Shown here piece after piece: positions 5,078 to 30,072 of a stretch of 33,821 nt of DNA (the first letter of the stretch is position 1; each line of letters begins with the position of its first letter). The position numbers were made by a program, and so were the translations under genes. The notes beneath the pieces are model-generated. The model made no database searches. It was not told the origin of the DNA and saw only the letters and a list, made by a program, of their open reading frames with translations. The DNA lies in NCBI GenBank assembly GCA_905612355.1, contig CAJQRU010000126.1, forward strand, positions 1 through 33,821, in the 5' to 3' direction. The DNA is from an uncultured Gammaproteobacteria bacterium. GTDB taxonomy: Bacteria; Pseudomonadota; Gammaproteobacteria; Arenicellales; UBA868.

Positions 5078-5851
5078 ATGAAACTCAGCGGCAAAGCGAG
5101 TCTCGTCACCGGCGCTGCCCGTGGAATCGGCCGCGCCATTGCCGAACGTCTTGCCGATGAAGGGTCCAATGTTGCGCTAGCGGATGTTCGCAAAGAACTC
5201 CTGACTGACGTTGCCGCCGCCGTAGATAAAAAGGGCGTCCAATCCCTCATGATCGCGGCGGACGTGACCCAGCCTATCGAAGTCGAATCCATGATCAATG
5301 CGGTCATCTCAAACTTCGGTGGGATTGATATATTCTTCAACAATGCCGGCGTCGTAAAGGTCCAGGAATTCTTTGACGTCAAAGAAGAGGACTGGGATCA
5401 CATCATGGACGTCAACCTGAAAGCCGTCTTCTTCTGCGGCCAAGCCGTGGCCCGTCACATGCGCGAGCGGGGTCATGGAAAAATTATTAACACCGCTTCG
5501 CTGGCCGCGAATCGAGGCCGACCCGAAATGGCGGTTTACGCCGCGAGCAAGAGTGGTGTCGTTTCGGTGACTCGCTCAATGGCGATCGAACTCGCAGAGA
5601 CTGGCATCACTGTCAATGCCCTAGCCCCTGGAATCATTGATACCGACATGTGGGAATTGATCGATGCACAGTCCGGTGACCTGCGCCATGTAGCCAAAGG
5701 TGAAACCTTCAGAAACCGAAGCAGCCTGATACCCATGAAACGGCCCGGGCGACCTGATGAAGTGGCGAATGTTGCCGCTTTTCTCGCCTCTAGCGAATCC
5801 GACTACATCACAGGTCAGACGATCTATATCGATGGCGGTGATTCGGCCTGA
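5078..5851 (+). CDS. short-chain dehydrogenase/reductase (SDR), second of a pair
   Basis: A classical SDR of 257 residues. TGAARGIG (11-18) binds the dinucleotide, Asp36 points to NAD(H), NNAG lies at 89-92, and Ser141, Tyr154 and Lys158 form the active site. The end reads TGQTIYIDGG, as in sorbitol- or acetoin-type SDRs. It starts 8 bases after the previous SDR, so one transcript is likely. Its last 28 bases overlap, tail to tail, the end of the nitronate monooxygenase gene on the other strand. Two adjacent SDRs divergent from an acetoin/pyruvate-type dehydrogenase suggest stepwise oxidation of a hydroxy compound into a 2-oxoacid or diketone. That link is inference; no substrate is assigned. 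Confidence 0.92.
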   Translation: MKLSGKASLVTGAARGIGRAIAERLADEGSNVALADVRKELLTDVAAAVDKKGVQSLMIAADVTQPIEVESMINAVISNFGGIDIFFNNAGVVKVQEFFDVKEEDWDHIMDVNLKAVFFCGQAVARHMRERGHGKIINTASLAANRGRPEMAVYAASKSGVVSVTRSMAIELAETGITVNALAPGIIDTDMWELIDAQSGDLRHVAKGETFRNRSSLIPMKRPGRPDEVANVAAFLASSESDYITGQTIYIDGGDSA

Positions 5852-6969
5852 CCGCGTGCTTCGCCACTGATCAACTGCCGCAGCGTTTGCTCGGTCTCCT
5901 TGACCAGTTGTTCGAGCAGTTTTTCCGCAGGCAAGTTGCGCGACAAAGACGCACTCTGTCCCGCCCACAATGACATGAAATCAGTATTGCCCGCTTGACC
6001 GCTGGCTTTCCTGAGTGGCCCAGTCAAGGTGTTAAGAATCGGAAAGTCCGGTACAGCATCTTCTAAGTCACGCATCTCTTGCGTAAAACGATTCTGAAGA
6101 CCCCGGGCCGGTCGGCCGGAAAACGCGCGCGTTATTTGGGCGTCATCTGCAGCACTGCGATTGAGTGCGTCACGATAGGCTGGCGGAACAGCAGATTCAG
6201 GGCAAGTCAGAAACGCCGTGCCCAACTGCACTCCCTCAGCCCCCAGTGCCAAGGCGGCCGCGATACCGCGGCCATCTGCAATACCCCCGGCGGCAATCAC
6301 TGGAATCGACACCGCATCCACCACCTGAGGGACCAAAGACAACGTACCAATCTCACCCGCCGCATACGGCTCGGCAAACGTACCGCGGTGCCCGCCCGCT
6401 TCAAAACCCTGTGCGATGATCGCGTCTACTCCTCGTGACTCGAGCGCGCGCGCTTCGGCAACATTGGTGGCTGAACTCATGGTAAAGATACCGCGCTCAC
6501 GAAGGGGACGGAACAGCGACTCACTTGGCAGACCAAAATGAAAACTCACTACTGCCGGCGCCATCTCAAGCACAGCTTCGAGATGCTCAGCATTGAACGG
6601 CGGCGCCGAGGCCTGCGCTAACGGCACCTCGCCCAGACCCAGTTCCTGATAGAACGGCGCCAGTGCGGCTCGCATGGATTCATCTCTCACCGGATCCTGC
6701 TTAGGCTCACGATGGACAAAGAAGTTGATGTTGTAACTCCCGTTAGTCGCGGCACGCAGGGTCCGGCAGTCAGCACGTACCGCGGAAGCCGAATGAAACG
6801 CAAGGCCCAGCGATCCCAGAGCGCCGGCATTAGAGACAGCGGCAGCCAGTTTTGGCGTGGTAGCACTTGCCATAGGAGCCTGCACAATGGGGAAACGCAG
6901 CCCAAGCCGCTCAGTGAGTCGATTCGACGGCCAGCGCGCGGACACCACTGCTGTGTACGAATCGCTCAC
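5824..6969 (-). CDS. nitronate monooxygenase family flavoprotein
   Basis: A 381-residue FMN-dependent TIM-barrel enzyme of the nitronate monooxygenase (2-nitropropane dioxygenase) family. Seen are the N-terminal phosphate/flavin region PIVQAPMA (28-34), the catalytic His194 in AGGHRG, the FMN-binding AAGGIADGRG (226-235) and GVQLGTAFL (246-254). Characterised members oxidise propionate-3-nitronate or other alkyl nitronates, but many in this family have unknown substrates. The start is a GTG that shares one base with the stop of the rhodanese gene (TAGTG), so the genes are coupled. It is the third gene of the thiol dioxygenase-rhodanese-NMO set. Why an NMO-family enzyme sits in an apparent sulfur-oxidation operon is unclear; it may act on a different substrate. 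Confidence 0.9.
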   Translation of the reverse strand: MSDSYTAVVSARWPSNRLTERLGLRFPIVQAPMASATTPKLAAAVSNAGALGSLGLAFHSASAVRADCRTLRAATNGSYNINFFVHREPKQDPVRDESMRAALAPFYQELGLGEVPLAQASAPPFNAEHLEAVLEMAPAVVSFHFGLPSESLFRPLRERGIFTMSSATNVAEARALESRGVDAIIAQGFEAGGHRGTFAEPYAAGEIGTLSLVPQVVDAVSIPVIAAGGIADGRGIAAALALGAEGVQLGTAFLTCPESAVPPAYRDALNRSAADDAQITRAFSGRPARGLQNRFTQEMRDLEDAVPDFPILNTLTGPLRKASGQAGNTDFMSLWAGQSASLSRNLPAEKLLEQLVKETEQTLRQLISGEARGQAESPPSI

Positions 6970-8567
6970 TAGTCAAAACGCCTGAACGTTGTACAACCAT
7001 CCTTATTGACCTGTGCGACCAAGCCCAACTCCCAATCAAGATAAGCCTGCATCGCTTCCTCAACGGCGTCGCGACGCTCGTAAGGCTTGTACCAGACATC
7101 GGCGGGGTCCTCTTCCCAACACGGGTCTACCCCCACCTCGATGGGATTGCCGGCAGCCTGCCAAGCCTTCGTTCCACCAACCAGCACCGATACGGTCCGC
7201 GCGGTGGACTCAGTCACATCACCCGCGGCTACCCCGGCAAGCACACCGTCTGGTGACAAGAGGACAATCTCCCCGTCGGATGGTTGAGCAGACACCCACG
7301 CTGGTATTTCTTCACGCCTTATCATCCTGGCGCCTGGCAGGTGCCCCTGGCGATAGGTCAAGCTGTCGGCAAGATCAAACAATACAGCGTTGCCCGCGTT
7401 CACACGGGCGGCCAGTTCTCCAACCGAAATCTGGTGAACTGTCGTATTTGAAAGACTGAGCACAACACTCGATTCCTCACCGTCAACACACGGCAGTTGA
7501 TCCACCCCCACTTCTAAAACATAAACTTCAGACCAACCCATCTGAATGAGCCAAGATGCAGTCGAAGTGGCCCGCACTCCGGTATCGTCAACCAAAACCA
7601 AACGCGCATTTCTCACACCCACATACTCATCGGTCGCCTGAACCAGTTGACCACCCGGCGCGCACCGGGAACCCGGTAAATGACTTTGCTTAAACTCCGC
7701 GGGCGATCGTACGTCCATCACGAAAAGACTGCGTGCGTCCGCCTCGTGCCGAAAACCTTCTAACTCTTCGAGCGAAACATACGGCACAGAAAATCTTGCG
7801 GCCACTCGTTCGGTCACAGCATTGGAACGCTCAAGTCCGCGCGCCGACACTTTGGGCGCAACACGCGACTGATCACGCTCTAGCGCATAACCGGCCAGAT
7901 GCCAGCCCATTGTCCCATCCTTGAGGGCAACCACTCGATTCGGAATACCGGCATTGATCAATGACTGGCTACCGATGATGCTGCGGGTCCGTCCTGCACA
8001 GTTAACAACCACTAAGGTATTAGGGTCCGGCGCAAGATCGTGCACGCGATAAACCAGCTCGGCCCCAGGACAACAAACCCCCCCGGGTATATTCATATTT
8101 TGAAACTCTGGCAACGGTCGACTGTCCAAAACCACCAGGTCCGTTCCCGATGCTTGAAGCGCTTTCAACTCCTGTGCCGAAACGTGCGGCGTGTCATACA
8201 CGGACTCAACAAATTCGCCAAACGCCTTACTGGGCACGTTAACACCAGAGAATAATTCAAAGCCAGCCGCCTTCCATCCTGCAACACCGTTTTCTAGTAC
8301 GTGAACATCGCAATACCCGAATGCAGACAAGCGCTGTGCGGCTTTGCTGGCACCCAGCTCTCCATTGCCCTCATCACACAAAACGATGGGCGTCGCCAAA
8401 CGCGGAACTAGGCGGCCAAAATCTATTTCGAGGCGGGCCAACGGTACAGACACAGCAAAGAGCAGATGTTCATTGGCAAATGCACCGCCCTCGCGCACGT
8501 CCACCAATGCAAGCTCATCAGACCCTCGAATCCGCTCTCGCAGACTTTCCGCCGACAGTTTCATCAT
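6969..8567 (-). CDS. four-domain rhodanese-like protein
   Basis: A 532-residue protein made of four rhodanese domains in tandem, at about 5-105, 129-230, 264-355 and 379-475, plus a conserved-looking tail (PADVWYKPYERRDAVEEAM). Rhodaneses move sulfane sulfur through an active-site Cys. Domain 2 has the canonical loop CAGRTRS with Cys190, and domain 1 has Cys64 in CDEGNGE. In domain 3 the loop starts with Asp327 (DDTGVRA) and in domain 4 with Ser438 (SPDGVLA), so these two cannot form a persulfide. There is no signal peptide, so it is cytoplasmic. Its start overlaps the stop of the upstream cupin gene (ATGATGA), and its stop overlaps the NMO start, giving a compact three-gene unit. Inferred role: handling of sulfur released or oxidised in thiol catabolism. 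Confidence 0.92.
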   Translation of the reverse strand: MMKLSAESLRERIRGSDELALVDVREGGAFANEHLLFAVSVPLARLEIDFGRLVPRLATPIVLCDEGNGELGASKAAQRLSAFGYCDVHVLENGVAGWKAAGFELFSGVNVPSKAFGEFVESVYDTPHVSAQELKALQASGTDLVVLDSRPLPEFQNMNIPGGVCCPGAELVYRVHDLAPDPNTLVVVNCAGRTRSIIGSQSLINAGIPNRVVALKDGTMGWHLAGYALERDQSRVAPKVSARGLERSNAVTERVAARFSVPYVSLEELEGFRHEADARSLFVMDVRSPAEFKQSHLPGSRCAPGGQLVQATDEYVGVRNARLVLVDDTGVRATSTASWLIQMGWSEVYVLEVGVDQLPCVDGEESSVVLSLSNTTVHQISVGELAARVNAGNAVLFDLADSLTYRQGHLPGARMIRREEIPAWVSAQPSDGEIVLLSPDGVLAGVAAGDVTESTARTVSVLVGGTKAWQAAGNPIEVGVDPCWEEDPADVWYKPYERRDAVEEAMQAYLDWELGLVAQVNKDGCTTFRRFD

Positions 8568-9151
8568 GCCGACAGGAATTCAGTTGTGAGCGTCATTTGC
8601 CGCACTGTGCCATCGACCGTATTAAAGACGAGCCGTTCATGCAGTTGATCCAGCGCCAGTCCGTACAGGTGAAGATGCAACGTGGACTCTGCATCATCTG
8701 TCGAAATGGCGTGAATATCCTCAGGAAGAAAAACAACGCCATTACCATGACTCACGGTGAACTTCCCTTTCTCCTCCACACGACCCTGTCCTTCCACGCT
8801 GCCATCATCCACACGCTCATAGAAGCGATTCAATTCATCGCCGTGCACGCCAACGATCACGGCCCAGGTAGTGTGATTATGCGGAGGCACTGATTTGCCG
8901 GCCGCCCCCGTCGAACCATAAAGTGCGAAACGATGGTCGGCATCCTCTGCCAAGCGATAAATAGCAGATTCTCCTGTTCCAGTTAGAGGAAAATGAGCTC
9001 GGGGAAACAGGGATTTATCATCGGCAAGCGCAATAAGCTCAGCCCGTATCGCCTTCAAGGTGTCATAATTTATTGGCCCATCTTGCTCAATGGCTCGTAT
9101 GCTTGTGATCGTGTCAGAAATTGCCGTGTCTCTTACCTGCTTGATGTCCAT
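8564..9151 (-). CDS. cysteine dioxygenase-like thiol dioxygenase (cupin)
   Basis: A cupin of about 195 residues resembling the cysteine dioxygenase family, which uses Fe(II) and O2 to turn a thiol such as cysteine or 3-mercaptopropionate into its sulfinate. Counting from the GTG at 9154, the expected three-His iron site is His92 and His94 (PHNHTTWAVIVG) with His148 (EDIHAIS). The C-terminal LHLHLYG also fits. The position of the mammalian Cys of the Cys-Tyr crosslink is not Cys, as is usual in bacteria. GTG (9154) and ATG (9151) are adjacent possible starts; I list the ATG. It is first in the set with the rhodanese and NMO genes and divergent from a PhyH gene. Cysteine versus another thiol as substrate cannot be decided. 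Confidence 0.85.
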   Translation of the reverse strand: MDIKQVRDTAISDTITSIRAIEQDGPINYDTLKAIRAELIALADDKSLFPRAHFPLTGTGESAIYRLAEDADHRFALYGSTGAAGKSVPPHNHTTWAVIVGVHGDELNRFYERVDDGSVEGQGRVEEKGKFTVSHGNGVVFLPEDIHAISTDDAESTLHLHLYGLALDQLHERLVFNTVDGTVRQMTLTTEFLSA

Positions 9152-9287
9152 CACCTGTATGTCTCCATAGATTTACACCTGATGCCTGAAGGATCCCACA
9201 TTTCGTTCCCTTTGCGCCAGAAGCAGACAGCCCAATCCTGAGATTGCCCTCATGCCATCATCCCACGGTACAGTATGTCCCTTGAAC

Positions 9288-12799: not shown

Positions 12800-14634
12800 T
12801 AGCGTTTATCTACTGCCTGTAACAGTTTGAGTTGTTGCAGTCGCTGCCGGATTTGCAGGCGCCGTTTTTCATTTTCGGTCACGCGCAACAATCCCGAGTA
12901 GGTCATGCGAGCATCGTCGTAGAAACCCCCTTCGGTCATAGCATTCGCCGCCTGGAAGCGGGCGCTCAATCCCCACGAGTCGTGCTGTTGGCCCTGTCCC
13001 TCGGCCGACCGCAGATAAAGCTCAGCGGCTTTTGCTGCATGACCTTCACCAACATGTGATTCAGCCATCCAAAATAGCAATTCACGCTGCTGCCCAGTCG
13101 TCAAATCATGGGCAGCCACCGCTTCGAACAGCTCGAGCGCCAAATCGTGTCGATCGATAATCTGAAGGTCAAAGGCAATCTGCATCACTCGATCCAGTTG
13201 CTCTGAGTCTATTTCTTTCTTTAGGCGAAGGTGATCGACCAAAATACGCGTGCCCACGCTAGCATTGCCAGCAAAAACTTCTGTGCGTGCCCGGCGCAGC
13301 AACCACTCGAGCTCACTCATACCACCCGGGGGCGATCGAATATGCGTATTGAAAATAGCGGCGAGATCAAAGCGATTTTCTCTTAATGAGAACGCGGCCA
13401 TTCTGACTGCCACGTCATCTGTCAGGGCCGCCTCCGCCGAACCCAAATAATTTTGACTGTAAAACATTATTACGATGGGTTCGAGACCATTTTTCGCCAA
13501 CGAGCGGACCAGCTTGACCAAGGCTTCAGCCCCACCCTCACCATCGCCAGCGGACGATACGATGTGCGCGTAAATCGCCCTTGCAACCGATCCGTGATCG
13601 AGCGACACATCCTGCGCAAAACGCAGCCACGATGCGGTATCACCAATCAGCAAATGTTCCCGATTAGCCACTTCGAGTGCGAGAAGCCCATAAGCGTCAA
13701 GTAAATTTCCGATCGATACAGCCCCAAGAACACCAAGGCTAGTTTCGCCATGAGCTAACAGGCTCTCCAACGCACCAACCCGCCTTTCAAGATCGCCAGC
13801 AAGGCGTGCTGCCTCAGCAATAATCCCTAGCCGCAGTCTCTCCAACTGCGTGTCGTCTTGCGTCTCCTGTTTGAACCGGGTCATCTCACCCATCGTCAAC
13901 TCCGGCGACGTAGCACCTTCACGCAAACGTGCTATGGACAACAATAATTGAACCTGACCACCTTGGAGATCAGCGAGTTCTAACGCGGCCAATGTGGGTT
14001 CATCATGTAACAGGAGAATCTTGGCGCGTAATAATTTCCATTCGGTATCGTCTGGATAGAACTCGAACTGAAACCGAATAGAGGCAACATATGCATCGTC
14101 GACCCGACCGTCGGCCAGATAGTTTTCGATAAGAATTCGGCGGGCCTGAATCGATTGATTCGGATCACCCGCCCCTTCCAGCAACAATTGACGCAACACG
14201 TGACGTGCCGAAACATATTCGCCTACTGCGGTAAACGTTGTAGCCAGCAGAAGCCTCGCGTTGCGTGCCCGGCCAGCGGACAACAGCGGCAGCGTCTGCT
14301 CTAGACGAACGATCAACGACCGCCAGCGTTGCTGCTGGCCAAGAACTTCCCATAACTCGTGTTCCCACGCATACCATTGTGGGCTGCCTGGATCGGGCTG
14401 CTCGGAAAGAATCAGTGCTTCGGCAAGTGACAGCGCCCCCTGTCGCCGAAGTTCACGCGCCCGACCGAGGCTAACACCGTCCTGCAGTGGCCGAACACTC
14501 ACCGTTGGCGTCGGGAGAGCTTCCCTCGCTTGCTCGGCGAATACAGCGGCCGTGCACAAAATCAGCCACGACACACCAACGGCAAACCGAGCCAGTCCTT
14601 TATATCGACTGTTTTTTTCCCGTGATCGCTGCAT
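12799..14634 (-). CDS. exported helical-repeat (TPR-like) protein of unknown function
   Basis: A 611-residue protein that I do not recognise as a named gene. A signal peptide is likely: a basic start (MQRSREKNSRYKG), a hydrophobic stretch at about 17-31 and an Ala-X-Ala-like end (VFAEQAREA). The rest is almost wholly helical, with repeated Leu/Ala-rich segments of about 34 residues resembling TPR or Sel1-like repeats (for example AKAAELYLRSAEGQGQ and FQAANAMTEGGFYDDA). It would lie in the periplasm and hold proteins together. It sits between rplS and xerD, coupled to xerD by TAATG, and 79 bases after rplS. No clear Shine-Dalgarno is seen. A role in cell-envelope or division assembly would fit the XerD link, but that is only inference. 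Confidence 0.8.
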   Translation of the reverse strand: MQRSREKNSRYKGLARFAVGVSWLILCTAAVFAEQAREALPTPTVSVRPLQDGVSLGRARELRRQGALSLAEALILSEQPDPGSPQWYAWEHELWEVLGQQQRWRSLIVRLEQTLPLLSAGRARNARLLLATTFTAVGEYVSARHVLRQLLLEGAGDPNQSIQARRILIENYLADGRVDDAYVASIRFQFEFYPDDTEWKLLRAKILLLHDEPTLAALELADLQGGQVQLLLSIARLREGATSPELTMGEMTRFKQETQDDTQLERLRLGIIAEAARLAGDLERRVGALESLLAHGETSLGVLGAVSIGNLLDAYGLLALEVANREHLLIGDTASWLRFAQDVSLDHGSVARAIYAHIVSSAGDGEGGAEALVKLVRSLAKNGLEPIVIMFYSQNYLGSAEAALTDDVAVRMAAFSLRENRFDLAAIFNTHIRSPPGGMSELEWLLRRARTEVFAGNASVGTRILVDHLRLKKEIDSEQLDRVMQIAFDLQIIDRHDLALELFEAVAAHDLTTGQQRELLFWMAESHVGEGHAAKAAELYLRSAEGQGQQHDSWGLSARFQAANAMTEGGFYDDARMTYSGLLRVTENEKRRLQIRQRLQQLKLLQAVDKR

Positions 14635-20986: not shown

Positions 20987-21991
20987 ATGGCAAAACCCAC
21001 CTATGGCAACAGTGACTTAGGTCACCCGATTGACGAACCTGACATTAATATCTCTGTGCGTCAGCATTTTGGCCTCGACGCGGACCTACAAGTGCCCGCC
21101 TTCAGCCAACGAAGCGAACATGTTCCTGATATTGATGATACCTATTGCTTCGACCGCGATACGACACTCGCTATTCTTGCCGGTTTTACCCACAACCGCC
21201 GCGTTATGGTGCAAGGTTTCCATGGCACTGGAAAATCGACTCACCTGGAACAGATAGCAGCGCGGCTGAACTGGCCATGTATCCGCATCAATCTGGATAG
21301 TCATGTCAGCCGTATGAGTCTTGTTGGTAAAGATGCCATCGTATTGAAAGAAGGTCGTCAAGCAACAGAGTTTCAAGAGGGTTTACTACCTATTGCAGCA
21401 CAAAATCCGTGCGCACTGGTTTTCGACGAGTACGATGCGGGTCGACCTGACGTGATGTTTGTGATTCAACGCGTGCTAGAAGCAGATGGACGTTTGACCC
21501 TACTCGACCAGAACCGGGTCATTCGACCTCATCCGTATTTCCGACTGTTTGCAACCACCAATACGGTTGGCCTTGGCGATGCCACTGGCCTCTATCACGG
21601 CACACAACAACTTAATCAAGGTCAGATGGATCGCTGGAATATTGTCGCCACACTTAACTATCTACCGCTGGAAGCAGAGCGACAAATTGTGTTATCCAAA
21701 GTGCCAGACTTTGATAACCCGGAAGGTCGCGAAACCGTCAGCGCCATGATTGCAGTGGCCGAACTTACCCGCGCTGGTTTTTCCGCCGGCGACTTATCCA
21801 CTGTGATGTCTCCACGCACTGTCATTATGTGGGCCGAGAATGCTCGTATTTTCTCGGATCTTGCGCTGGCGTTTCGTCTTACGTTTCTAAACAAGTGCGA
21901 CGAACTTGAGAGGGCTGTCGTCGCTGAATTCTACCAACGCTGTTTTGGTACCGAACTGGCAGAATCCGGCGTTCAGGTCGCAGAGGCCTAA
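20987..21991 (+). CDS. cobS: CobS-like AAA+ ATPase (cobaltochelatase small subunit type)
   Basis: A 334-residue AAA+ ATPase of the CobS type. The N-terminal part matches the family ([21 protein letters not shown]). Walker A is GFHGTGKST at 77-85, Walker B LVFDE at 144-148, and sensor-like residues occur in [10 protein letters not shown]. CobS and CobT form a chaperone-like ring that powers CobN in aerobic cobalt insertion into hydrogenobyrinate diamide. Here no cobN or other cobalamin gene is in the window. CobS/CobT-like pairs without CobN are known, so the pair may serve another metal enzyme. It is six bases upstream of cobT and divergent from the Rieske oxygenase gene. The symbol states the family, not a proven role. 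Confidence 0.9.
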
Positions 21992-21997
21992 CGGACG

Positions 21998-23776
21998 ATG
22001 GACCGGCAACCCCCGGTCGACAACTTCTGCCACGCGACCGCCGGCACGATGCGGGCAATCGCCCAGGATAACCACCTGGCCGTATCTTTCGCTGACGGAA
22101 AGGCTGGAATTGCCGGACACGACGCACGACTTCCCGTGCCACCAACAGATCTTGCGCATGATCGAGTGACCCGTGTACGCGGCGAAGCAGACGGCATGGC
22201 GCTTCGGCTGCGCCACCACGACGCCATGATTCATAACCGGCACCAACCGGGTACACCGAGTGCACGAGCCGCTTTCGATGCATTAGAAACCGTTAGAGTC
22301 GAATCCCTTGGCTCCCGACATCGTATCGGCATCGCTCATAACTTGGCTGCTGTGCGAGACGTCTATTGCCGCGCACAGGGATACGAGGCAGTCGTTGAAC
22401 GCGCTGACGACCAACTTCCTGATGCACTTGGACTACTCGTTAGAGAAGCATTAACGGGGGAGGCGCCGCCAATCTCTGCCCGAACCATGGCCAACCTGTG
22501 GCGACCCTTAATCGAACCCCGCCTGCAAGCGACTCTCGACTCCCTTCGCAGCACGCTTAATGACCAGACACAATTTGCCGAACAGGTACGGAGTTTTCTT
22601 TCTGCACTGGATTTTCTCGACGACGAACCTAACGAACTGACCACCACTGATCCCGGTGAAGACGAAATGGAGGATCCAGCTGACCCGGGCCAGTCCGAAG
22701 ATGAGGGCAACGAGCAAGCACAGGAACAGGCGTTAGAAGATGGAGCGGACAGTGATCTTGGCGATGTCGATGCCGACGAATTAAACATGGAAGCCATCGA
22801 CGAAGACGAAATTCCCGAAGACGCCTCCTTGATTAATGCATCGCATAACGATTCGCAGCGCCCTTACAACGCCTATACGGATCTCTTCGATGAGATTGTG
22901 CGTGCTGAAGACCTGTGCGATACAGAAGAACTGGGACGGCTTCGCGGACGACTGGACGACCGCTTGGCCCAGTTTGCCAGCGTTATTGGACCTCTGGCTA
23001 ACCGCCTGCAACGCAAACTGCTTGCCCGCCAGCAATTTGCCTGGCGGTTCGAGCTTGAAGAGGGCCAACTCAACACCGCCGTACTCGCCCAGGTCGTCGC
23101 CAACCCAACCGATGCACGCCCATTTATGGAGGAGATAGAAACTGATTTCCGTGACACCATCGTCTCACTGCTTATTGACAACTCGGGCTCTATGCGGGGG
23201 CGCCCCATTACGGTCGCTGCCATGTCAGCTGACATTCTGGCTCGCACGCTGGAACGATGTGGGGTCAAGGTAGAGATTCTCGGTTTCACTACCGGCGCAT
23301 GGAAAGGTGGGAAATCAAGAGAAAAATGGTTGTCAGACAACACGCCGACAGCTCCGGGGCGCCTTAACGACTTGCGGCACATCATCTACAAACCCGCATC
23401 AGTTCCATGGCGTCGCGCAAAAAACAATCTCGGACTGATGCTGCGCGAAGGTATCCTGAAGGAGAATATCGACGGTGAGGCTGTCCTTTGGGCCCACCAA
23501 CGACTGCTCCAGAGACCAGAACAAAGGCGTGTTCTGATGGTGATTTCAGATGGAGCCCCCGTCGATGATTCGACCTTATCCGCCAACAGCGATAACTACC
23601 TGATCAGGCACCTTAAAGGCGTCATCAAAAACATCGAAGCGGAATCACCAATTGAACTCATCGCCATCGGCATTGGTCATGACGTGACTCATTACTATCA
23701 ACGAGCCATTACGATCGACGATGCCGAACAACTGGGCGGCACCATTATGGATGAGTTGTCAGCGCTGTTCGACTAA
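21998..23776 (+). CDS. cobT: CobT-like VWA-domain protein (cobaltochelatase subunit type)
   Basis: A 592-residue CobT-type protein. Residues 1-205 form the helical N-terminal region. Residues about 208-278 form a strongly acidic linker (many Asp and Glu), as in known CobT. The C-terminal von Willebrand factor A domain spans about 385-590 with the metal-ion-dependent adhesion site DNSGSMRG (Asp394, Ser396, Ser398) and the later [10 protein letters not shown]. The segments [15 protein letters not shown] and HRLL-type stretches near [16 protein letters not shown] are family-specific. It works with the AAA+ CobS just upstream. The gap to cobS is six bases and the gene converges, seven bases apart, on the broken alcohol dehydrogenase gene. 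Confidence 0.9.
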
Positions 23777-24953: not shown

Positions 24954-25556
24954 TCAGCATTCAAAACGATAACCGTATTCGGTCGACGCGGATACCAACG
25001 CCTCACAAAGACTGACGGCAAACCCGCGCATCACATGCAACTCAAAGTCATCCCGCCCAGGCACCCTGGCAATGTGTACCGCCATATGATGCATGGTGGT
25101 GTTCGCACAAGACCCCACGACAAAGATCTTTGGATGCAGATCTAACGAACATAACTTAGCCAACGCCGACAACACCTGTGGTCCTGAAAGCGACAGAATG
25201 CTGCGCGCGTGACTGAGCTCGACCACGGAAGCGACTCCGCCGAGTGGGGTTTCGAGTTCCACAGCTAGTTCGCCCGCTTCGAGTTCTGAAGCGCATACCA
25301 ACCAACTTCCCGGTCCGTACCAATGCCAATTACGCGCGCCGCGTGCAACGACAGTATTCGTCACCAACGCCGGGCCGATCAGTTCCCCCCACTGTAATTT
25401 CATGTTTTGCCGGCGCGTAACCAGCGCCAAAGATCGTCCATGAATTTCCTTAATGACCACGCCTGGAACCGTCTGTCCTGGCAGCAGCACCTGTGCGTCC
25501 TCCAGGTGCCGGAGAAGTGGAGAGTCAATAACTGGTTTAAATATCAATTCAGTCAC
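24954..25556 (-). CDS. soxG: sarcosine oxidase gamma subunit
   Basis: About 200 residues, the smallest variable subunit of heterotetrameric sarcosine oxidase. The sequence ELIFKPVIDSPLL, then HGRSLALVTRRQ and the SoxG-like WYGPGSWLV, followed by ILSLSGPQVLSALAKLCSLDLHP and HHMAVHIARVPGRDDFELHVMRGF near the end fit the SoxG/GcvT-like fold. I use the GTG at 25556, which overlaps the soxA stop by eight bases. The frame stays open further upstream inside soxA, but that part is an out-of-frame shadow. It is the fourth gene of soxB-soxD-soxA-soxG. Confidence 0.88.
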   Translation of the reverse strand: MTELIFKPVIDSPLLRHLEDAQVLLPGQTVPGVVIKEIHGRSLALVTRRQNMKLQWGELIGPALVTNTVVARGARNWHWYGPGSWLVCASELEAGELAVELETPLGGVASVVELSHARSILSLSGPQVLSALAKLCSLDLHPKIFVVGSCANTTMHHMAVHIARVPGRDDFELHVMRGFAVSLCEALVSASTEYGYRFEC

Positions 25557-28533
25557 GCAAACGTACCCCCTCGGGGTCGAGAAACAACGGTGACACCAGT
25601 TCCACATCCGCTTCCATGCCGCGGAGTCCTTCGATAGCCCGCATCTTCTCGCCGATACGCTCTTCTCCACCGTTGACAAGTGCCAAACCAATCCAGTGAC
25701 CCAAAGCGGGACTGTAAGTAACCGAGGTAACAAATCCCTCGTCGTTCTTCGCTATCGCAGACTTGCCCGGTCCCACCAGATGAGCACCGGCGAAGAGTCG
25801 GGCGCCGGCTCGTTCGGGAACCAGGCCAACAATGCGCTGTCGGTTTGCATCAATCATGCCAGGACGACCTGATAGGAAACGGCCGATGTAATCTTTCTTT
25901 TGACTAACCATCCGGCCGAGGCCAAGATCGTGCGGAGTCGTTTGCCCGTTCAACTCCTTGGCAGTCACGTGTCCCTTCTCTATCCGCATGACATCCAACG
26001 CCTCACTACCGTACGGTGTAATGCCGAATGCCTCCCCGACTTCCATCAGATGATCAGCAAAAGCACGGGCATAGCCGGCGGGCACGTTAATTTCATAGCC
26101 TAATTCTCCGGAAAAACTGATACGAAAAAGCCGAAGCGCCATCCCTTGAAAGGTGAATTCCCCCGCGGCCATATAAGGGAATGCGTCGTTATCAAGTGAA
26201 ATCTGTGGCAGCACACGAGACAACAACTCGCGGCTTTGCGGCCCCGCAACGGCGAGGCCCGCCCACTGTTCTGTCACCGAACAAAACTGAACGTCGAGTC
26301 CAGGCCAGACGCACTGGTGATAAAACTCCATATGCGCCAACACACCAGCTGCATTATGGGTCGTAGTCGTCATCAGATACCGATCAGCTGTCAGTCTCGA
26401 GGCAGTGCCATCGTCATAAAGGATGCCATCTTCACGCAACATCAAACCGTATCGTGCCTTACCCACTTGCAGCGTTTTGAACCCGTTGCTGTACAGTAAA
26501 TTAAGAAATGCGCCTGCGTCGGGGCCCTGGATATCTATCTTTCCCAAAGTTGAGACATCACACACTCCGACGGAACGCCGCGTTGCCAACACCTCACGTT
26601 CTGAGGCAACCGCCATGTCCTCACCCGCTTTAGGAAAGTATCGAGACCGGTACCACAGTCCTACCTCAAGAAATTCTGCGCCCAAATCCACAGCCCATTC
26701 ATGTAACGGGCTGTAACGCACCGGCTGAAAATGCCGACCGCGACTGTCTCCAGCGAATGCACCAATGGCAACCGGTGTGTAAGGTGGGCGAAAGGTCGTG
26801 GTCCCCACATCAGCCATCGCTCGCTGCGTTTGTTCACCCAGGATCGCCAAGCCGGTCACATTTGATGTTTTGCCCTGGTCCGTAGCCATTCCAAGCGTGG
26901 TGTAGCGTTTCATCAACTCAACTGAATCAAACCCTTCCCTTACCGCCAATGCCAGGTCATCCACGGTCACATCATTCTGTAAATCGACGAAGGCCTTTTC
27001 TGTTGCACCGGCAATCTGCCAAAGTGCTTCGCTTGCCGACTCGGCGGACTCCCCTGTCACCTCGGGGATCGGCTGTTCAATAGCCAACGCAAACCCGCAG
27101 CGTAAAGCGGCTTCATGCCCCGCATCATGCCCTGTTCGAAGGGCCGTCACCATATCGAACCGCCCAGACGCTCCGCCGACAACCGACACCGATTCGCCCA
27201 AGTCACCTGCCAGAAAACAACCCAGTGTGTTGTCAAAGACCGGCTTCACGCCAGTGTGCGAAGTCAAATGAATACGCGGATCATGGCCCCCAGAAAGACA
27301 CAACAGGTCGCAATCAAGGTCAACTCCCTGACCTCCCCCCCGTGGTGCTATGCGCGCCCCTCGCAACTGAGTTGTGCCATGTGCTCGAAGCACTACACTG
27401 TTGTCGAAAACCTGCGTCCCGGTATCTTCAAGTTCTGCACGCACCGCCGAATCAACACCCGATCGCACATCAACGAGAGCGCGGACCGTGAGTCCGACTG
27501 ACTTGAGGTCCCGGACGGTGCGGACACCACTGTCATTGTTAGCGAAAACAATCGCCGATTCACCCGGCGCAACCGCATAACGGTTGACGTACGATCGAAC
27601 AGCACTGGCCAACATCACCCCTGGCCGATCGTTGTTCGTAAACGACAGGCCTCTCTCCATTGCACCGCTCGCAAGGACCACCTGACGAGCAATGATGTGC
27701 CACAACCGTTGGCGGGGCTGGCCAGGTGGTGGTTCGGCCAAGTGATCATTGACCCGCTCCACTGCGCCCAGAACATTGTGGTCATAGTGACCAAATACGG
27801 TGGTTCGCGGTAACAGTGTAACGTTGTCAGACGTCTTCAACTCCTCGATGCAAGCGCGCGCCCACTCGACTCCCGTGACTCCATCAATGACCACGTGTTC
27901 ATCGAGCAGCGTGCCACCGAAACGGGCCTGCTCATCGGCAATCAGTACACGGGCGCCACTTCGCGCCGCGGCGCGTGCAGCCATCAAACCGGCAGGACCT
28001 GCACCAATAACCAATAGGTCGCAATGATGCCAACTGGCTTCGTAGTGATCAGGATCCGCACGAGAAGACGCGCGACCCAATCCCGCCGCCCGTCGAATCT
28101 GTGGCTCGTAAACTTTTTCCCAAAAAGACGCGGGCCACATAAATGTTTTGTAGTAAAAACCGGCGGGTAACAACGCCGATATCAAACCGTTGACCGCCCG
28201 CCAATCGAAACGCAAACTTGGCCAACGATTCTGACTGCACGCTGACAGTCCCTCAAACAATTCGGTGACGGTGGCCCGTGTGTTAGGTTCCCGTCGAGCT
28301 CCTTCTCTCAACTCAACCAACGCGTTCGGCTCTTCCGACCCGCTGGTAAAAATACCTCGCGGCCGGTGGTACTTGAAACTGCGCCCCACCAGGCGAACTC
28401 CGTTAGCAAGCAGCGCCGAGGCCAGCGTATCCCCCTCGTAGCCCTCGAAACGCTTACCATCGAATCGAAATTCGATGGGTTGTAATCGGTCAATCAAGCC
28501 ACCAACGGGCAGGCGAAACTTCTGCCGTGTCAT
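25549..28533 (-). CDS. soxA: sarcosine oxidase alpha subunit
   Basis: A 994-residue alpha subunit of heterotetrameric sarcosine oxidase, which with SoxB, SoxD and SoxG oxidises sarcosine to glycine, passing the methyl carbon to tetrahydrofolate and making hydrogen peroxide. The N-terminal 2Fe-2S-like/ubiquitin-fold region (FEGYEGDTLASALLANGV, FKYHRPRGI) leads into a dinucleotide-binding domain with GAGPAG at 177-182. A second nucleotide-binding segment follows (AIVFANNDSGVRTV). The C-terminal 400 residues are a GcvT-like folate domain (GELGYEINVPA, DVMRIEKGHV). The ATG overlaps the soxD stop by four bases (ATGA). The length is close to the usual about 960-1000 residues. Confidence 0.95.
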   Translation of the reverse strand: MTRQKFRLPVGGLIDRLQPIEFRFDGKRFEGYEGDTLASALLANGVRLVGRSFKYHRPRGIFTSGSEEPNALVELREGARREPNTRATVTELFEGLSACSQNRWPSLRFDWRAVNGLISALLPAGFYYKTFMWPASFWEKVYEPQIRRAAGLGRASSRADPDHYEASWHHCDLLVIGAGPAGLMAARAAARSGARVLIADEQARFGGTLLDEHVVIDGVTGVEWARACIEELKTSDNVTLLPRTTVFGHYDHNVLGAVERVNDHLAEPPPGQPRQRLWHIIARQVVLASGAMERGLSFTNNDRPGVMLASAVRSYVNRYAVAPGESAIVFANNDSGVRTVRDLKSVGLTVRALVDVRSGVDSAVRAELEDTGTQVFDNSVVLRAHGTTQLRGARIAPRGGGQGVDLDCDLLCLSGGHDPRIHLTSHTGVKPVFDNTLGCFLAGDLGESVSVVGGASGRFDMVTALRTGHDAGHEAALRCGFALAIEQPIPEVTGESAESASEALWQIAGATEKAFVDLQNDVTVDDLALAVREGFDSVELMKRYTTLGMATDQGKTSNVTGLAILGEQTQRAMADVGTTTFRPPYTPVAIGAFAGDSRGRHFQPVRYSPLHEWAVDLGAEFLEVGLWYRSRYFPKAGEDMAVASEREVLATRRSVGVCDVSTLGKIDIQGPDAGAFLNLLYSNGFKTLQVGKARYGLMLREDGILYDDGTASRLTADRYLMTTTTHNAAGVLAHMEFYHQCVWPGLDVQFCSVTEQWAGLAVAGPQSRELLSRVLPQISLDNDAFPYMAAGEFTFQGMALRLFRISFSGELGYEINVPAGYARAFADHLMEVGEAFGITPYGSEALDVMRIEKGHVTAKELNGQTTPHDLGLGRMVSQKKDYIGRFLSGRPGMIDANRQRIVGLVPERAGARLFAGAHLVGPGKSAIAKNDEGFVTSVTYSPALGHWIGLALVNGGEERIGEKMRAIEGLRGMEADVELVSPLFLDPEGVRLRD

Positions 28534-28811
28534 GACCTATGGTCCTCTCCATCTACCCCCGCCGCCAGTGCAACAGCCAGCACTTTGTGCGTCACGGTGT
28601 CACGTTTCAGCCGAAACCAGGCGCGACAGCCACTGATGTGGTGCCAAAATTCCCAATGCGGACCATACGGATTGTCCCGTAAATACACGTAGTCAAGCCA
28701 CGCTGATTCGGAAGATGGCTCGATGGAAGTCGGTCGCGTTACGGTCGCATCACCTCGATAACTGAATTCCTCGAGCCCTCGCTCACCGCAATTTGGACAG
28801 GGAATACGCAT
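28530..28811 (-). CDS. soxD: sarcosine oxidase delta subunit
   Basis: A 93-residue zinc-binding delta subunit of heterotetrameric sarcosine oxidase. The family start MRIPCPNCGERGLEEF is plain, with Cys5 and Cys8, and the second half of the zinc site is at WHHISGC (His57/58, Cys62). WLDYVYLRDNPYGPHWEFW is diagnostic. I set the start at MRIPCP, ten bases after the soxB stop; an in-frame upstream extension overlaps soxB and is not conserved in the family. The stop overlaps the soxA start. Confidence 0.94.
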   Translation of the reverse strand: MRIPCPNCGERGLEEFSYRGDATVTRPTSIEPSSESAWLDYVYLRDNPYGPHWEFWHHISGCRAWFRLKRDTVTHKVLAVALAAGVDGEDHRS

Positions 28812-28821
28812 CGTCGGGGAC

Positions 28822-30072
28822 TTAATGCAGGTTGGGCTGTGGACCCATACCCTTCTCATCAATGATTCGGCCTGTCGAAAACCGATCTAGCCGGTAGGCT
28901 GCGTTTAATTGATGCGGCTCGCCACGTGCCAAGGTATACGCAAAAACCCAACCTGATCCCGGCGTTGCCTTGAAACCCCCATAGCACCAGCCGCCATTCA
29001 GATAGAGACCGGTCACTGGCGTCAATCCGATGATGGGACTGCCATCCATGGTCATATCCATCACACCACCCCAGTGCCGCACCACGCGGACGCGGCCCAA
29101 ACACGGCATCATCGCCATTCCCGATTCCATAATATGCTCAGCGGTCGGCAGGTTTCCGCGTTGTGCGTAAGAGTTGTAACCATCCAGGTCTCCACCAAAA
29201 ACCAGCCCGCCCTTGTCGGATTGAGAAACATAAAAATGCCCGGCGCCAAACGTCACCACCGTGTCGACCAACGGTTTAATGCTTTCCGATACAAAGGCCT
29301 GAAGCACGTGACTCTCGATCGGCAGACGCAGCCCCGCCATTGACGCGAGGCGCGAAGAGTTTCCAGCAACTGCCAGCCCCACTTTGCCCGCGCCGATAAA
29401 TCCCCTAGTGGTGTCCAGGCCCTCGATGGCACCATCCTTTATACGCATGCCAGTCACCTCACAGTTCTGGATAATGTCGACACCCAGTTGGTCCGCGGCT
29501 CGAGCAAAACCCCACGCCACGGCGTCGTGGCGTGCGGTCCCCCCGCGAGGCTGACACAAGCCACCCAACACGGGAAACCGCGCGTTATCGAAATCAAGAT
29601 AGGGCAAGACCTTTTCCAGTTCGTCCCGATCCATCAGCTTCGCATCCGCACCATGCATGAGCATCGCGTTACCGCGGCGAATGAAACCGTCTCGTTGCGA
29701 ATCCGAATGAAACAAATTGATCACACCACGTTGGCTCATCATCACGTTGTAGTTCAGCGATTGTTCAAGTCCTTCCCATAACTTGAGCGACCACTCGTAG
29801 AACGGCTCGTTGCCATCCAGCAAATAATTTGATCGCACGATAGTGGTATTCCGACCCGTATTGCCGCCGCCAATCCATCCCTTTTCAAGCACCGCAACAT
29901 TGCGAATACCGTGCTCACTGGCAAGGTAAAAGGCCGTCGCCAGGCCGTGGCCACCGCCACCCACAATGACGACGTCATAAGCCGGCTTAGGCTCAGGACT
30001 GGACCAGGTACGAGGCCATTTCCGATGACTCGACCATGCCTGACGAAATATCTGGAGCGCGGAGTGCTTCAT
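28822..30072 (-). CDS. soxB: sarcosine oxidase beta subunit
   Basis: A 416-residue flavin subunit of heterotetrameric sarcosine oxidase, where sarcosine is oxidised. The FAD dinucleotide motif is VIVGGGGHGLATA (GGGGHG at 38-43), followed by VLEKGWIGGGNTGRNTT. His182 in GTARHDAVAW is where I expect the His that carries covalent FMN in characterised beta subunits. The C-terminal DGSPIIGLTPVTGLYLNGGWCYGGFKATPGSG is typical. It is the first gene of soxB-soxD-soxA-soxG. The ATG has no strong Shine-Dalgarno. About 115 bases lie upstream, with small palindromes noted separately. Confidence 0.95.
   Translation of the reverse strand: MKHSALQIFRQAWSSHRKWPRTWSSPEPKPAYDVVIVGGGGHGLATAFYLASEHGIRNVAVLEKGWIGGGNTGRNTTIVRSNYLLDGNEPFYEWSLKLWEGLEQSLNYNVMMSQRGVINLFHSDSQRDGFIRRGNAMLMHGADAKLMDRDELEKVLPYLDFDNARFPVLGGLCQPRGGTARHDAVAWGFARAADQLGVDIIQNCEVTGMRIKDGAIEGLDTTRGFIGAGKVGLAVAGNSSRLASMAGLRLPIESHVLQAFVSESIKPLVDTVVTFGAGHFYVSQSDKGGLVFGGDLDGYNSYAQRGNLPTAEHIMESGMAMMPCLGRVRVVRHWGGVMDMTMDGSPIIGLTPVTGLYLNGGWCYGGFKATPGSGWVFAYTLARGEPHQLNAAYRLDRFSTGRIIDEKGMGPQPNLH

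Follow-up and report, generated by a model that had tools for sequence, protein, structure and literature searches.

The three coupled minus-strand genes studied here are probably a thiol dioxygenase/four-domain rhodanese unit of a known kind, which would carry out a sulfur route, joined in a single genus by a coupled flavoenzyme gene whose product would act separately. They lie in a stretch of 33,821 nucleotides (hereafter the window) from an uncultured Gammaproteobacteria bacterium, and the features referred to below are as follows.

5824..6969, minus strand: nitronate monooxygenase (NMO) family flavoenzyme (PF03060), 5LSM-like, 381 aa
6967..6971, minus strand: TAGTG stop/start overlap, rhodanese/flavoenzyme, read from the sequence; TAGTG, TAATG or GTGA across four species
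6969..8567, minus strand: four-domain rhodanese, 532 aa
8564..8567, minus strand: ATGA stop/start overlap, dioxygenase/rhodanese, read from the sequence; identical in four species of the genus
8564..9151, minus strand: thiol dioxygenase (cupin), mercaptosuccinate-dioxygenase-like, 195 aa from ATG 9151
9152..9251, no strand: intergenic stretch separating the unit from a divergent PhyH gene, from the ORF map

The ORF map and the sequence agree on three reading frames (9151-8564, 8567-6969 and 6969-5824), with a GTG in frame at 9154, ahead of the ATG of the dioxygenase. The genes are thus real, as are the order and the stop/start overlaps given for them in a preliminary description of this DNA, and the same order was found in four species of the genus. 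One detail of that description had to be amended: the first overlap does lie at 8567-8564 but reads ATGA, the longer ATGATGA spanning 8567-8561. At the second overlap, the TAG of the rhodanese (6971-6969) and the GTG of the flavoenzyme (6969-6967) have one base in common; since this junction is kept in three letter forms among the four species, it cannot be put down to chance in a single assembly. Within the genus the trio spans about 89-96% protein identity, and all three genes are under purifying selection (dN/dS 0.10-0.19, with about 0.11-0.13 for the NMO). This arrangement implies that the three genes share a transcript, whose promoter is likely to be located in the 9152..9251 intergenic region; a consensus scan of that region found no sigma-70-like promoter, a result that is uninformative in either direction. 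The unit is bordered by a convergent SDR gene, the tail of which overlaps the end of the NMO gene (5824-5851), and by the divergent PhyH gene at 9252.

Three other parts of the window were recorded. A 611-aa protein encoded at 12802-14634 (minus strand) has no Pfam match and is kept in the genus at 86-89% identity. A CobS/CobT-like pair is found at 20987-23776 (plus strand), with no other cobalamin genes adjoining it in the window, and the region 24957-30072 (minus strand) carries sarcosine-oxidase-like alpha and gamma subunits together with a FAD oxidoreductase (DAO family) encoded by a gene of its own.

We then looked at the identity of the dioxygenase. The protein gave no Pfam or NCBIfam match; it matched mercaptosuccinate dioxygenase (PDB 8VNI) at 5.4e-35, with 41% identity, compared with 21% for the Azotobacter 3-mercaptopropionate dioxygenase (3MDO). 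Its AlphaFold2 model (pLDDT 93.2) had the same protein as its best PDB match (Z 27.2, rmsd 2.0, 191 aligned), the scores being about 22 against 3-mercaptopropionate dioxygenases and 18.7 against cysteine dioxygenases (CDO). The cupin fold and the three iron-binding histidines of the thiol dioxygenase family are present, His91, His93 and His147 being invariant in 17 aligned sequences. The triad at positions 159, 161 and 163 is His-His-Tyr (HHY), as in 8VNI, compared with Ser-His-Tyr (SHY) in 3MDO-type proteins, and the protein contains no cysteine. Sequence and model together assign the enzyme to the mercaptosuccinate dioxygenase (MSDO)-like subtype; the preliminary description, which had called it cysteine dioxygenase-type, was correct at the level of the family but not of the subtype, as judged from the 8VNI match, the triad and the Z scores. 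The window genome (G000) also encodes two more distant thiol dioxygenase homologues, on C44 (L153:4383-4970) and C133 (L154:4195-4743), which are 30% and 26% identical to the window dioxygenase and have no Pfam family match.

A Pfam search recognised four PF00581 stretches in the rhodanese, and the protein matches 1YT8 from end to end (4.5e-126, residues 9-527 of 532 aligned); by sequence it is a member of the PA2603 (1YT8) four-domain family. In the CAGRTRS loop of domain 2, Cys190 is present in 101/101 homologues and is the sole invariant cysteine among them. The cysteine of domain 3 is replaced by Asp327, an aspartate equally kept in 101/101 homologues, while domains 1 (Cys64) and 4 (Ser438) are variable in the same set. 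Several irregular relatives were seen. In G007 the rhodanese (L142:8276-9869) is split across two frames near residue 447, by an assembly error or a frameshift. One genus (G359, G431, G478, G519, G535, G604, G652, G682, G701) has a shorter relative, matching over about 350 residues, which is without the last part of the four-domain protein and without an adjoining dioxygenase. On an Agrobacterium Ti plasmid (L163:4974-7083), the rhodanese has a LysR/sulfonate-transport (ssu-like) set on one side and a gene for a small cupin on the other.

How widely the first two genes travel together was assessed in 80 rhodanese loci taken from genome contigs, 78 of which include upstream DNA; neighbours were mapped at the domain level, the loci being partly GC-rich. 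A thiol dioxygenase gene was directly upstream on the same strand in 60/78 loci and absent from that position in 18/78. The 60 include four loci where the two proteins are fused in one frame (L007:5320-7584, L008:4907-7498, L015:5329-7581 and L022:5203-7578), L015 coming from the isolate Desertibaculum subflavum. A sample of the phylum (398 genomes) yielded three more fusions (G458, G515 and G706); outside the window genome it held 43 rhodanese places, of which 18 had an adjacent dioxygenase and 3 were fused. Natural fusions are thus known from seven loci (L007, L008, L015, L022 and L165-L167) in several Pseudomonadota, single-contig genomes included, and a limited search of the open literature found no description of them. 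Persulfide dioxygenase-rhodanese fusions of the ETHE1 type likewise join a sulfur dioxygenase to a rhodanese, but the dioxygenase there has a beta-lactamase fold and is not a cupin. The same rhodanese family is paired with dioxygenases of just about 20-25% identity, of the 3MDO (SHY) and MSDO (HHY) types, and this pairing with deeply different subtypes is strong evidence of a functional link. As a unit, dioxygenase and rhodanese recur widely, adjacent or fused in most sampled rhodanese loci; the view that the two belong together holds, and the unit has already been described (PMC12947264, PMC5373536).

Two described systems allow a direct comparison. In the 3mdo-tst unit of P. protegens CHA0 (c14110-c14100), homologous to PA2602-PA2603 (PMC12947264), the thiol dioxygenase gene is, as in the window, directly upstream of a gene for the same four-domain rhodanese family, apparently in one transcription unit; in contrast to the window, the dioxygenase belongs to the 3-mercaptopropionate type, with about 21% identity to ours, and there is no NMO. 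Deletion of 3mdo raised 3-mercaptopropionate, whereas deletion of tst did not significantly alter the extracellular level of this compound (PMC12947264). The Msdo cluster of Variovorax paradoxus B4 and Advenella mimigardefordensis (PMC5373536) combines a mercaptosuccinate-type dioxygenase, 41% identical to that of the window, with a rhodanese-domain protein, and differs by its LysR regulator, cystathionine beta-lyase and amino-acid ABC transporter and by having no NMO; the window unit, for its part, has no adjoining regulator or transporter. A layout comparable to the Msdo cluster was seen in G515, where the pair is surrounded by LysR, TctC and Cys/Met PLP enzyme genes. In sister genera of the window's, a class V aminotransferase gene is upstream of the pair and an amidase gene downstream (L140:6133-11065, L141, L142 and L146); in L140 and L141, 2 bases separate the rhodanese from the amidase gene.

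The third gene behaves differently. Only in the genus of the window (the window, G001, G002, G003 and L004) is the rhodanese followed by an NMO gene; the count for the genus is four species, L004 being apparently, from its equal length, the same contig as that of G003. Apart from this genus, none of the 77 other rhodanese loci and none of 22 rhodanese-bearing relatives carried an NMO gene in the unit. In a sample of the class (274 genomes), NMO relatives were present in 55 genomes and the rhodanese in 6, the two being adjacent only in the window's own genome, and of 38 further rhodanese-bearing genomes, 30 had NMO relatives, none of them in the unit. The nearest was in G515, 2.3 kb from the pair and beside its own MFS gene; this locus was rejected as a trio, the pair being followed by TctC and the Cys/Met PLP enzyme and the NMO being on the opposite strand. 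The locus, class and phylum samples all reject the trio as a general unit, and nothing relevant to it was found in the open literature. In sister genera the NMO adjoins a Rieske protein, an Mrp antiporter or MFS genes, and in the tree the NMO of the unit is sister to the NMOs that the family has elsewhere (support 98/97). The preliminary description had proposed that the flavoenzyme adds a third step to the pathway of the other two and had called for a genome-neighbourhood check, holding that confinement of the trio to this genome and its close relatives would refute that proposal; such confinement, to one genus, is what we found, the orthologues elsewhere lying by Rieske or MFS genes. The flavoenzyme gene is best read, from these comparisons of sequence, as a lineage-specific, translationally coupled addition to a known pair.

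Some further observations concern NMO genes outside the unit. The family's NMO-like gene is repeatedly beside a gene of about 540 aa (L134:4372-7116, L135, L136 and L137), for which the sole Pfam match, in the two loci searched (L134 and L137), was an N-terminal Rieske domain. The possibility that the NMO of the trio is a recent duplicate was rejected: in the tree, the second NMO of G002 (C156, L138) falls among those of another genus, separated from them by very little, and is probably bin contamination or a recent transfer.

The flavoenzyme has a full-length PF03060 match (2.5e-88) and is closest to 5LSM (5.7e-88). Like the class I NMOs (PaNMO, 4Q4K; Shewanella 5LSM), it has FMN-barrel motifs and the active-site Met, Asn and His. 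The active site of class I is made of five residues (Met18, Asn67, His176, Tyr297 and Lys305 in PsNMO; PMC11510023), and two of the five differ here, Tyr299 being changed into Phe and Lys307 into Gly (PaNMO numbering); 5LSM likewise lacks the Tyr and Lys and has the changes in part. With 2/5 residues different, nitronate need not be the substrate, so the doubt already raised on this point has some ground, but the changes are common to NMOs throughout the bacterial family, including those outside the unit. As for the suggestion that the real substrate is a sulfur compound, the class I set is indeed incomplete, but nothing points to such a substrate.

The sulfur route that we favour would run as follows. 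Judging from its subfamily and residues, the dioxygenase would use Fe(II) held by three histidines, together with O2, to oxidise a small thiol carboxylate (one resembling mercaptosuccinate is most likely) to a sulfinate, which would break down to sulfite, as reported for sulfinosuccinate (PMC5373536). The rhodanese would carry sulfane sulfur on its domain 2 cysteine, Cys190, and, most simply, join it to sulfite to give thiosulfate, which the organism's Sox proteins could then oxidise; SoxY is present in the window's genome. Since the tst deletion had no significant effect in P. protegens (PMC12947264), the rhodanese step is putative. The flavoenzyme would be the family's ordinary NMO-like gene product, its gene placed in the unit in this genus, and would probably oxidise or detoxify a small anion in a reaction of its own, its co-expression having been gained by position. 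Retention of the coupled NMO in 4/4 species of the genus counts against its being a mere passenger.

That retention, together with the three forms of the overlap, the low dN/dS of the NMO and the loss of the class I Tyr and Lys, could also be read as the mark of a true third step in the sulfur pathway, one that has a sulfur compound (e.g. the sulfinate) as its substrate or removes a by-product. We find this quite unlikely, however: no NMO is in the unit outside the genus, sister genera that have the pair keep theirs beside Rieske, Mrp or MFS genes, and the residue changes are common to NMOs outside the unit. The common theme might instead be the carbon skeleton and not sulfur, the unit guarding against or consuming toxic C3/C4 acid analogues, with the dioxygenase taking thiol acids and the NMO nitro or nitronate acids (propionate-3-nitronate). 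The NMO family assignment fits this idea, as does the action of MSDO and 3MDO on thiol carboxylates (PMC5373536, PMC12947264), but it leaves the rhodanese without a role, the class I residues are incomplete and no conserved link exists elsewhere; we hold it to be very unlikely.

The seven natural fusions raise another possibility, namely that the rhodanese feeds persulfide to the dioxygenase or takes the sulfinate directly, the two forming one channelled enzyme in which free sulfite is not the link. This seems unlikely, since a fusion speaks for closeness and not for chemistry, and the known 3MDO and MSDO use plain thiols. It is highly doubtful that the flavoenzyme, minus its two class I residues, is in this genus a dedicated third enzyme on a sulfur intermediate and, at the same time, that the fusions reveal the pair as a channelled sulfur-oxidising enzyme.

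Altogether, the trio is mainly a warning that coupling of genes within a single genus is no proof of a pathway. The most useful by-product of the analysis is the set of one-frame dioxygenase-rhodanese fusions. Loss of the four-domain rhodanese in P. protegens left no clear phenotype. Its link with thiol dioxygenases can be put to a direct test, given the wide pairing over divergent dioxygenases, the natural fusions and the one cysteine that never varies.
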